A DNA stretch of 64,000 nucleotides from Polaribacter sp. WD7 (GTDB lineage Bacteria > Bacteroidota > Bacteroidia > Flavobacteriales > Flavobacteriaceae). Position 1 is the first letter of the stretch. Every line of letters starts with the position of its first letter. Location of the stretch: positions 248,001-312,000 of the forward strand of contig NZ_QPEJ01000015.1 of NCBI RefSeq assembly GCF_003335085.1, read 5' to 3'. Below are positions 58,477 through 61,917 of this stretch, piece by piece. The notes beneath the pieces are model-generated. The model saw nothing but the letters and a program-made list of their open reading frames with translations. It made no database searches and was not told the origin of the DNA. A program made the position numbers and the translations under genes.

Positions 58477-61400
58477 TTACATGTTTCTGCGGTATTGTCC
58501 GCCAACCTTAAATAATGCTTCTGTAATTTGCCCTAAAGAACAGGTTTTGGTAGCCTCCATTAGTTTGTCAAATAAGTTTTCATTTTGAACAGCTGCCTCT
58601 TGCAAAATTTTAATTTGTTTTTTTGAATGATTTCTTTGTGCTTGTTCCAGATTTTCTTTGGTTTGTATTTGGTTTTGTTTTTCTTCTTCCGTAGCACGTA
58701 TAACTTCTGCAGGTAAAACGGTTGGAGAACCTTTAGAACTCAAAAAAGTATTAACTCCAATAATTGGGAATTCTCCATTGTGTTTTAGTGTTTCATAATA
58801 CAAACTTTCTTCTTGAATTTTAGAGCGCTGATACATGGTTTCCATAGCACCTAAAACACCGCCTCTTTCGGTTATTCTATCAAATTCCTCTAAAACAGCT
58901 TCTTCAACTAAATCTGTCAATTCTTCAATAATAAAAGAACCTTGAATAGGGTTTTCGTTTTTAGTTAAACCTAATTCTTTGTTGATAATCAGTTGAATGG
59001 CCATAGCTCTTCTTACAGATTCTTCTGTTGGGGTGGTTATGGCTTCATCATAGGCATTTGTGTGCAGAGAGTTACAGTTGTCATATATTGCATATAGAGC
59101 CTGTAATGTTGTTCTAATATCATTAAAATCAATTTCTTGCGCGTGTAAAGAACGTCCAGAAGTCTGAATATGATACTTTAGCATTTGTGCTCTCTCATTT
59201 GCACCATATTTTAATTTCATCGCTTTTGCCCAAATTTTTCGAGCAACTCTACCAATTACCGCATATTCAGGGTCAATTCCGTTTGAAAAGAAAAACGACA
59301 AGTTAGGTCCAAATTTATTGATATCCATTCCTCGTGACAAATAATACTCAACGTAAGTAAAACCATTGGCTAACGTTAGCGCTAATTGTGTAATTGGGTT
59401 TGCGCCAGCTTCTGCAATATGATATCCAGAGATAGAAACCGAATAAAAATTTCGTACCTGTTTTTCTATAAAATACTCTTGTACATCACCCATTAATCGA
59501 AGCGCAAATTCTGTAGAAAAAATACAAGTATTTTGTGCTTGATCTTCTTTTAAAATATCTGCTTGTACTGTACCCCTAACTTTAGTTAATGTGTCTTTTT
59601 TTATCTGTTGATACACCTCAGAAGGTAAAACCATATCACCAGTAATACCTAACAATAACAATCCTAAGCCATTGTTTCCTTCAGGTAAATCGCCATGATA
59701 TTTAGGTCTTTTTAAGCCATTATTATCATAAGTTTCTGAAAGTTTATCTTCTACAACATATTCAAGATTATGTTGTTTGATGTATTTTTCACAATTTTGA
59801 TCAATAGCTGCATTCATAAAAAAACCAAGCAACATGGGCGCGGGTCCATTAATCGTCATAGAAACAGAGGTCATAGTATGGCTTAAATCGAAACCAGAAT
59901 ACAATTTTTTAGCATCATCTAAACAACAAATAGAAACACCAGCATTTCCTATTTTTCCATAAATATCTGGTCTGTTTCTAGGGTCATTCCCATATAAGGT
60001 TACACTATCAAAAGCGGTAGATAAACGTTTTGCATCCATACCTAAACTTACATAGTGAAAACGTCGGTTGGTTCTTTCTGGACCACCTTCTCCAGCAAAC
60101 ATTCTTGTTGGGTCTTCACCTGTTCTTTTAAAAGGATATAATCCTGAAGTATACGGGAATTCTCCAGGTACGTTCTCTTGTAAGTTCCATTTCAATAGAT
60201 CACCCCATGCTTGGTATTTGGGTAAACTTACCTTAGGAATTTTTGAATGCGAGAGAGATTCACTATGCGTTTCTATATTGATTTCTTTATCTCTAACTTT
60301 AAATGTATAGATTGGATTTTTATATTGCTGAACTTTTGTATTCCAATTTAAAATGATTTCCCAATTATAAGGGTTTAAGTTGAGTTTTACTTTGTCAAAT
60401 TGAGCAATTAGTAATTTGATGAAAACGATATCGTCATTCTGAACTTGTTTTAGAATCTTATCATTGTCAAGTCCGTTTTTTGAAAGAAAAGATTCTTTCA
60501 CTGCGTTCGGAATCACAGATAAAATAGTTTGTTGAATGCCATATAATTTTTGTGCAACTACCACCTGTTTTTCAACGTTATCATCATAAGACCTGTTGCT
60601 TTCTGCAATTTCTGATAAATAGCGAACTCTTTTTGGAGGAATGACGTAAATTTTTTCAGACATTGCTACAGAAATTTCCATCTTAGATTCAAGGTTAGCA
60701 CCTGTTTTTTCTACCAATTTATCCATAATCGCTTTGTAAAGCGAGTTCATTCCAGGATCGTTAAATTGAGAAGCAATTGTACCAAAAACTGGCATGTCAT
60801 CCATATGAACATGCCATAAATTATTGTTACGCATGTATGTTTTTTTAACATCACGAATAGCGTCTAAAGCACCTCTTTTATCAAATTTATTAATGGCAAC
60901 TAAATCTGCAAAATCTAGCATGTCAATTTTCTCTAATTGAGTGGCGGCACCAAATTCTGGGGTCATTACATAAAGAGAAGTATCAGAATGCTCTATAATT
61001 TCGGTATCAGATTGCCCTATGCCAGATGTTTCTAAAATAATCAAATCAAACTCAGCAGCTTTAAGAACTTCTACGGCTTCATTCACATGTTTGGATAATG
61101 CCAAATTAGATTGACGAGTAGCCAGAGATCGCATATAAACACGTTTATTATTAATAGCATTCATGCGAATTCTATCACCTAAAAGTGCACCTCCTGTTTT
61201 TCTCTTAGAAGGGTCTACAGAAATTAAACCTACGGTTTTTTGAGGAAAATCAATTAAGAAACGTCTTACTAGCTCATCTACCAAAGAAGATTTTCCAGCA
61301 CCACCTGTACCAGTGATTCCTAAAACAGGTGTTTTTGAGTTTTTGTTTTTTATATGAATGTTGTCTAAAGTAGGTTTTGCGATTTCAGGAAAGTTTTCTG

Positions 61401-61917
61401 CGGCAGAAATGACTCTAGCTATTTTACCCGAATCTTTTTTAGGTAAATCATTAACCTTTATATCTACAGCGTTTCCTATTGCAAAGTCAGATTTTTCTAC
61501 CAAATCGTTAATCATTCCTTGTAAGCCTAATTCTCTTCCATCATCTGGAGAATAAATACGAGTAATTCCGTAATTCATTAACTCTTTGATTTCTTCTGGT
61601 AAAATAACTCCACCTCCGCCTCCAAAAATTTTAATATGACTTGCATTTTTTTCTTTTAGCAAATCGTACATGTATTTAAAATATTCATTATGACCTCCTT
61701 GATAAGAGGTCATTGCTATAGCATTTGCGTCTTCTTGTATAGCACAATTTACAACTTCTTCAACACTTCTGTCGTGGCCCAAATGAATTACTTCAACTCC
61801 TGTAGATTGTATTATTCTACGCATAATGTTTATAGCAGCATCGTGTCCATCAAATAATGAAGCAGCAGTCACAATACGTACTTTATATTTAGGTTTGTAA
61901 GGAGTTGTTTGTAGCAT
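58477..61917 (-). CDS. icmF: Fused acyl-CoA mutase IcmF (B12 domain, MeaB-like GTPase, mutase)
   Basis: 1146 residues with three domains in IcmF order. The cobalamin-binding domain is at about 10-140, with the B12 histidine in [10 protein letters not shown]. The MeaB/G3E GTPase domain runs from about 195 to 430, with P-loop [12 protein letters not shown]. The mutase barrel runs from about 570 to 1110 ([42 protein letters not shown]). It rearranges isobutyryl-CoA and butyryl-CoA or related acyl-CoAs, with a built-in chaperone. Residues about 466-496 ([22 protein letters not shown]) are encoded by a dispersed-repeat sequence inserted in frame between GTPase and mutase domains. It stands alone, divergent from the DUF4136 gene. 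Confidence 0.93.
60431..60520. repeat. Dispersed palindromic repeat inserted in frame in icmF
   Basis: Two half-elements, GTCATTCTGAACTTGTTTTA and GATTCTTTCACTGCGTTCGG (the second bounded by GATTC and GAATC), lie 38 bases apart. They match intergenic repeats I recognise from many Bacteroidota genomes. They keep the reading frame and encode about 30 residues of the IcmF linker. Confidence 0.65.

Follow-up and report, generated by a model that had tools for sequence, protein, structure and literature searches.

The icmF locus

The window, by which we mean the whole 64-kb stretch of DNA that was analysed, carries on its minus strand a gene for a fused isobutyryl-CoA mutase and MeaB-type GTPase (IcmF). 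The protein matches the NCBIfam equivalog NF045497 at 1733.3 bits against a cut-off of 1500, and its closest named relatives come from Polaribacter and Tenacibaculum. Within the gene lie two REP units and a spacer, in frame, which together encode 29 residues (468–496). The MeaB GTPase match ends upstream of this segment, at residue 409, and the alignment to the IcmF of Cupriavidus picks up again past it, at residue 514; the initial annotation, which had placed an in-frame repeat of about 30 residues between the GTPase and mutase domains, was thus right on this point. From the sequence, we infer that the REP-encoded stretch is translated into protein. The features are as follows.

58477–61917, minus strand: icmF, fused isobutyryl-CoA mutase/MeaB-type GTPase, 1146 amino acids
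60425–60525, minus strand: joint hairpin of both REP units; in the mRNA sense −23.3 kcal/mol, z −2.29, with 3 of 200 shuffles as good
60430–60459, plus strand: REP unit 2, type A (profile alignment 60432–60461, CGTCATTCTGAACTTGTTTTAGAATCTTAT), with an 8-bp stem and a 5-nt loop; its minus-strand reading gives 10 residues, 487–496
60460–60486, minus strand: spacer between the REP units, 27 bp, encoding LSKNGLDND (residues 478–486) and containing an L-x-K-x-G core
60487–60516, minus strand: REP unit 1, type N, GTGATTCCGAACGCAGTGAAAGAATCTTTT, encoding 10 residues (468–477), in the orientation opposite to unit 2

As single-stranded DNA, the plus strand of the REP pair has a fold that is not unusual (z −1.20).

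Identity of the two units

CGTC-tagged REPs were defined by Di Nocera, De Gregorio and Rocco in 2013, with Bacteroidetes among the phyla that carry them; in the portion of that survey drawn on here, their traits are an unpaired CGTC or TGTC tag, a stem of 8–9 bp starting with AT, a loop of 4–5 nt and a 3-nt tail fitting CCA (PMC3733652). Unit 2 starts with a CGTC tag at 60432, and unit 1 has TGTG, a degenerate tag. We built profiles from repeat copies outside icmF (42 sequences for type A, 37 for type K and 27 for type S), the consensuses of which all start with TGTC, and unit 2 scores 44.6 bits with the type-A profile so made. Among 528 kb of non-icmF loci, the best outside match is 27 of 30 for unit 2 (60 shuffles reached at most 24, the reversed sequence 20) and 26 of 30, in locus L155, for unit 1 (shuffles at most 23, reversed 21); since these loci were picked for containing repeats, the match tests likeness to the REP family rather than abundance.

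Type A has the stem ATTCTGAA/TTCAGAAT around the loop CTTGT, and 96.1% of stem cells are paired in the 42 outside copies. These copies hold seven double-change cells, where shuffles have 0.8 and at most 5, and their five further pair types are within shuffles (maximum 7). The copy in the window forms all eight stem pairs, one of them G–T. The 3′ end of type A outside icmF is CTCAT, compared with the CCA tail of the CGTC-tagged REPs, and by eye types S and N fit the CGTC stem and loop scheme less neatly, with a bulge or a longer loop. The two icmF units are inverted with their tags outward, as are some outside pairs (L164, L172 and L210). The segment had been read as two half-elements of an intergenic repeat: the repeat origin stands, but each unit is a whole hairpin monomer and the two together are an inverted pair.

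Copies in the window, the genome and the genus

At a cut-off of 12 bits, icmF is the only place in the window that the A, K and S profiles match, with no second copy; the icmF element is absent from the 20 largest families of a repeat scan of the same 64 kb, which has no Rfam match at gathering thresholds and no tRNAs. The sequence GTCATTCNGAAC is present at only four places in the genome. When three mismatches are allowed, five type-A copies are found there: one in icmF, one in bioF and three not in long ORFs. By pattern, the genome holds five A, two S, no K and four E copies. Four of the five type-A pattern copies cluster at C4:72667–90924 around the biotin genes, and the profile gives further, weaker type-A copies in the 26 kb around these genes (the scan covered G000:C4:70001–96000, loci L008 and L009). 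For unit 1, a second copy was not found in the genome, and a 150-bp query matched elsewhere on the unit-2 side only.

Across 57 genomes, the patterns match 501 S, 276 K and 181 A copies, with reversed-pattern controls of 0 each, and 187 E copies, with a control of 26. Type E is the least specific pattern, since four of its loci (L141, L167, L176 and L185) match only by chance, in a protein that contains GHSELEE. We considered mobilisation of the icmF repeats by a RAYT and rejected it: Y1 transposases are present in 30 of the 57 genomes, yet the window's genome gave no Y1 match, and of 20 Y1-transposase loci in the genus not one is close to A, S or K repeats.

REP units in the icmF linkers of relatives

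We collected 160 icmF genes from relatives, encoding 157 distinct proteins, of which 153 were kept after 3 identical proteins and 4 without anchors had been set aside; the linker alignment left out three duplicate loci of the genome itself. In a phylum-level outgroup set, 30 of 40 loci were readable, the other 10 having no single frame.

At 14 bits or more on both strands, the profiles match 63 times in the linkers (33.5 kb) and not once in the other 498 kb of the 153 genes; this threshold was chosen after the counts had been seen, and at 12 bits type A has two matches outside linkers and types K and S none. At least one match is found in 48 of the 153 genes, some of them weak (L089 at 15.8 bits in an odd frame, L136 at 14.0 and L339 at 14.4), and 105 are without one; because the repeat types were picked after the linkers had been seen, 48 of 153 is descriptive rather than an unbiased frequency, and the contrast along the gene is unaffected. 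On the coding strand there are 20 S units (17 at site 1 and 3 at site 2) and 5 K units, and on the non-coding strand 27 A units and 11 S units (10 at site 2 and 1 at site 1). Sixty of the 63 stand in the frame usual for their type; on the non-coding strand these are 26 of 27 A and 10 of 11 S, and on the coding strand 19 of 20 S and all 5 K. The combinations at the two sites are S+A, S+S, K+S, K+A and N+A.

Type N at 24 of 30 or better is present in seven linkers including that of the window (one of the other six, L014, is K-like) and nowhere else in icmF genes; at 20 of 30 or better it is found 20 times inside and 20 times outside linkers. Type B references did not usefully separate linkers from background. 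In 130 icmF genes, all 41 matches of four overlapping patterns fall within the linker. From the genus totals of S, K, A and E, 0.006–0.018 copies per type would be expected in 6477 bp of linker, compared with 11 S, 2 K, 5 A and 7 E observed; the genes are related, so that the events are not independent. In loci L137 and L139, the linker has an additional stretch past ILKQVQND (KSNVIPTERGTNDEESETY in L137), as if an extra unit had been added in frame.

Linker length and the native core

From anchor to anchor, the linker of the window's IcmF has 102 residues. The median is 99 in 82 genes with the core and no profile match and 104.5 in the 48 repeat-bearing genes, so the claim that the enzyme is correspondingly longer does not hold. 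Among the 23 genes scored without the core, the linker has 72–85 residues in 17 and 99–112 in five, and that of L031, at 53, probably has a misplaced anchor; the core was scored with a loose pattern, which the outgroup genes L324 and L330 seem to fit by chance. In the alignment, by eye, the L-x-K-x-G core is common to IcmF of the Flavobacteriaceae with or without repeats. It was not seen in linkers of other families among the 30 of 40 readable outgroup loci, and the outgroup linkers are mostly shorter. The IcmF of Cupriavidus metallidurans (PDB 4XC6) has the same domain order and linker position as that of the window, with 31 residues where the latter has 56, about 25 fewer. On this sequence comparison, the roughly 25 extra residues are a feature of the whole family Flavobacteriaceae.

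These lengths bear on another account, in which one REP pair of about 85 bp was cleanly inserted in the lineage of the window. The unit order and outward tags do match a pair outside long ORFs (for example that of L164), and repeat-bearing linkers are somewhat longer in the median; but the core is also present in repeat-free genes, whose linkers are nearly as long, and the spacer between the units carries that core and is IcmF's own sequence. Alignment with relatives, from which the initial annotation had expected a clean insertion to emerge, therefore does not support one, and we regard this account as largely contradicted and very unlikely.

In four loci of another Bacteroidota family (L346–L349), icmF appears as two open frames split at the linker with other frames between them, which is perhaps a natural unfused IcmF. 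Large frames there that resembled linker insertions of about 490 residues turned out to be distinct, with further open frames lying in between.

DNA stem and encoded peptide

Among the S copies in icmF, 11 stem cells are changed on both sides; shuffles give 3.1, and not one of 500 comes as high. The set holds 12 distinct copies, 8 of the 20 on the coding strand having been left out (2 identical rows, 3 at site 2 and 3 below 25 bits). Stem pairs with a double change number 3 against 1.8 (101 of 500 shuffles as high) and further pair types 7 against 6.0 (183 of 500), both within shuffles. The type-A copies in icmF (12 of 27 left out, 10 below 25 bits and 2 as identical rows) hold 5 compensating cells compared with 1.3 in shuffles; here too, double-change pairs (42 of 500 shuffles as high) and further pair types (500 of 500) are within shuffles. 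All of these counts are subject to the caveat that related sequences can exceed shuffles.

In one stem pair, a silent third base is matched by the second base of a later codon, so that the residue there is K, M, T or R with the stem variants ACT...AAG, ACA...ATG, ACG...ACG and ACC...AGG, respectively. Such compensation across codons is what a sampling of REP stem variants would be expected to leave. The opposite situation, which had been named as fatal to a repeat origin and in which a conserved protein sequence would lie over unrelated DNA, was not seen; the stem tends to be kept while the residues change.

Turnover of repeat types at one site

We made a FastTree tree of the IcmF proteins with the linker excluded and compared the repeat-type labels on it with 200 shuffles. 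The coding-strand labels require 21 changes on the tree (25 labelled tips; shuffles mean 24.0, minimum 21) and the non-coding-strand labels 33 (38 labelled tips; mean 35.9, minimum 32). As these counts lie near the shuffled values, the labels are close to random on the tree, with some noise from the thresholds, from type N, which was not included, and from a few units at the other site. The linker has the lowest DNA identity in 10 of 12 close pairs, and the other two pairs (L018/L020 and L137/L139) have the same linker type. Between L080 and L119, the middle of the linker is 53% identical and the flanks 83–95%.

The variability of the linker in these pairs is also what ordinary fast evolution, with chance resemblance to repeats, would produce. 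Such an explanation is already refuted by the 63-to-0 distribution of profile matches, the shuffles of the two units and the compensating cells, and we consider it exceedingly improbable.

A more serious alternative is that the REP types change mainly through the swapping of entire linker alleles between species, by homologous recombination in the conserved domains on either side, the REPs being passengers that rarely move themselves. L018 and L011 look much as this would predict, with DNA identities of 83–97% in the flanking blocks and 63% in the middle of the linker, and with protein identities of 98–100% in most flanking blocks and 48% in the middle linker block, all three linker blocks being reduced. 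The small phylogenetic signal in the labels points the same way, as does the N+A pair of the window, which recurs in L337, L021 and L026, whereas the nearest tree tip, L040, is without the N unit. Against it, the separate combinations at the two sites and a chimera of S core and A tail need change within the linker too, and the compensating stem variants look like a sampling of the REP population. We consider exchange of whole alleles as the main process to be possible, at somewhat under even odds.

The chimera just mentioned, GTCGAGAGACAGRATC, has nine matches in the 57 genomes with one mismatch allowed, compared with two for the reversed control; seven have the S core and all seven of these are in icmF, and the other two are without the S core. 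This suggests, on sequence grounds, that an S unit has partly replaced an A unit in icmF, and the seven chimeras may stem from one event followed by descent or transfer. Copies of at least 25 bits were also compared with their flanks. On the coding strand, S copies match each other no better than their flanks do (78.4 vs 79.4%), and in all 3 K pairs the copies match less well than the flanks, both of which count against recent homogenisation; on the non-coding strand, the copies are more alike than their flanks in 101 of 136 A pairs and 40 of 55 S pairs.

REP units in other genes

The bioF gene of the same genome contains an in-frame REP stretch encoding FRQAQNDRERHSELDSESHQ, just ahead of the conserved ESVFSMDGD motif.

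G000:C4:86231–87433 (L008:16228–17433), minus strand: bioF, with the in-frame REP

At this place the protein has 31 residues, compared with 8 in E. coli BioF, and it is thus 23 longer there. By eye, related bioF genes have REP-like peptides at the same spot in L351, L353, L359, L363 and L364, with 8 of the 24 loci having no readable frame. By an ORF criterion, 12 of 121 non-icmF copies lie within open frames of at least 200 amino acids, in fetched loci that are not a random sample. The expectation that the same peptide would turn up in unrelated proteins is thereby borne out in kind. Next to the biotin genes, a weaker type-A match lies in frame within a beta-ketoacyl synthase gene (L009:1042–1071, 17.8 bits, EKILHQTKNDN). 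Together, bioF, the beta-ketoacyl synthase gene and the 12 copies in open frames indicate that intragenic REPs are not unique to icmF; it is the repeated occupation of one site that stands out. Loci L211 and L212 both have an S-type REP at one and the same place in a gene (DEILCHFERSREIFDW) that probably encodes a monooxygenase.

Structure and folding of the linker

The full-length IcmF model was poor (mean pLDDT 56), and for this reason only a model of the linker was used. This model, of 156 residues, has a mean pLDDT of 72, with values of 76–90 over the REP segment; in it, a long helix runs to residue 468 and is followed by a loop, a short helix at 485–491 and a further helix from 494. The REP-encoded residues are accordingly predicted to sit at the tip of a helical hairpin that connects the GTPase and mutase domains.

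At the linker, the RNA folding z has a mean of −1.07 and a median of −0.59 in repeat-bearing genes (n = 47) compared with a mean of −0.30 in the others (n = 77), and 600 nt upstream the two groups are alike (−0.31 and −0.38). An RNA structure conserved in all relatives was considered and discarded, as the linkers that have no profile match show ordinary folding. The folding difference could also be taken to mean that the hairpin is kept for a function, whether as a translation pause, as mRNA structure at the domain boundary or through a peptide that tunes GTPase–mutase coupling; the location suits this, the linker being described, in the part of the report drawn on here, as lying between domains that must communicate (PMC10481361). 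But the stronger folding follows from the hairpins themselves, and with 105 of 153 genes having no profile match the hairpin is not required. We therefore think a function of this kind unlikely.

Origin of the REP-encoded segment

The reading that we prefer, with a probability of about 70%, is that an inverted pair of CGTC/TGTC-type REPs became coding sequence of icmF at a tolerant loop and that REP types have since replaced each other there. The loop, at the tip of the helical hairpin, would be little constrained in length and sequence. Since the core is family-wide and missing in other families, an older insertion in the Flavobacteriaceae, of about 17–25 residues by comparison with other Bacteroidota, seems to have made this loop, and the REPs occupy both sides of it. 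On the same comparative grounds, REP units would then have occupied two positions flanking the conserved L-x-K-x-G core, and different types would have replaced each other at both. The replacement may have involved recombination of the resident hairpin with REPs that have the same ends, or template switching between them, with exchange of linker alleles between species probably mixed in, and the REP stretch would be tolerated rather than selected.

The REP origin, the frame, the fixed sites and the change of types are supported by the sequences compared. The change of types may reflect replacement in place, transfer of whole alleles or both. As a whole, the observation in the initial annotation is partly confirmed and its interpretation partly supported.

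A further proposal, which we put forward only tentatively, is that the IcmF linker is a standing dock for CGTC REPs across the Flavobacteriaceae, with hairpins still being exchanged between genomic copies and icmF. If this were true, a selfish repeat population would keep supplying variants of the linker that joins a chaperone GTPase to its client mutase, and CGTC REPs would be still recombining rather than dying relics. Where a single orthologous site in coding DNA differs so much in REP type between close relatives, it also offers a natural record of CGTC REP spread. The locus is in any case a clear one in which DNA of an intergenic repeat type supplies part of a central enzyme, at the loop that joins a metallochaperone GTPase to its client.

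Comparison with known systems

GTAG REPs, which are mobilised by RAYTs, and REPINs are short hairpins in inverted pairs. The icmF units resemble them in being inverted hairpin pairs, but differ in their tag, which is CGTC/TGTC, and in having no RAYT association in the 20 Y1 loci.

Palindromic elements of Rickettsia were reportedly described by Ogata et al. in 2000 and 2002. Like the REPs in icmF and bioF, RPE-1, RPE-4 and RPE-6 are palindromic DNA lying in frame inside conserved proteins. In the portion of the literature on them used here, the insertions include one in a guanylate kinase that is still active with changed affinity (PMC2229807). As described there, the Rickettsia elements are longer (105–146 bp), whereas in icmF two short REPs flank a native core and the types are replaced at one site. 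The parallel with Rickettsia that had been proposed for this locus is nevertheless apt: in the sections of the CGTC survey drawn on, RPE-6 of R. conorii is equated with CGTC-1 REPs and RPE-4 with CGTC-4 REPs, and some CGTC REPs lie inside genes, where they encode 20–30 residues (PMC3733652).

The same sections describe CGTC REPs as mostly intergenic, with inverted (HH) pairs predominant and no transposase gene flanked by CGTC units, and suggest that they may be heading for extinction or be mobilised by other enzymes (PMC3733652). The part consulted of another REP analysis, whose table includes two Flavobacterium genomes, states that REPs seldom overlap coding regions (PMC12306157). In the titles and abstracts of the openly available papers among the matches listed, we found nothing on REPs in IcmF or on coding REPs in Flavobacteriaceae. 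The icmF repeats share with the CGTC REPs the tag, an AT-initial 8-bp stem, a 5-nt loop (in type A), the inverted pairs, a mainly intergenic location, the lack of a linked transposase and the occurrence of some units inside genes. A comparable shared site in the survey, as far as its cited portion goes, is recB of two Xanthomonas species, with stress laid on genes of DNA synthesis and repair (PMC3733652). Here, by contrast, a single site in one central metabolic enzyme carries different REP types across many species of one family. REPs inside genes are thus a known phenomenon, of which icmF is a real and well-supported case; what is unusual in it, and seems to be new, is that repeat types turn over at a single coding site in many members of a family.
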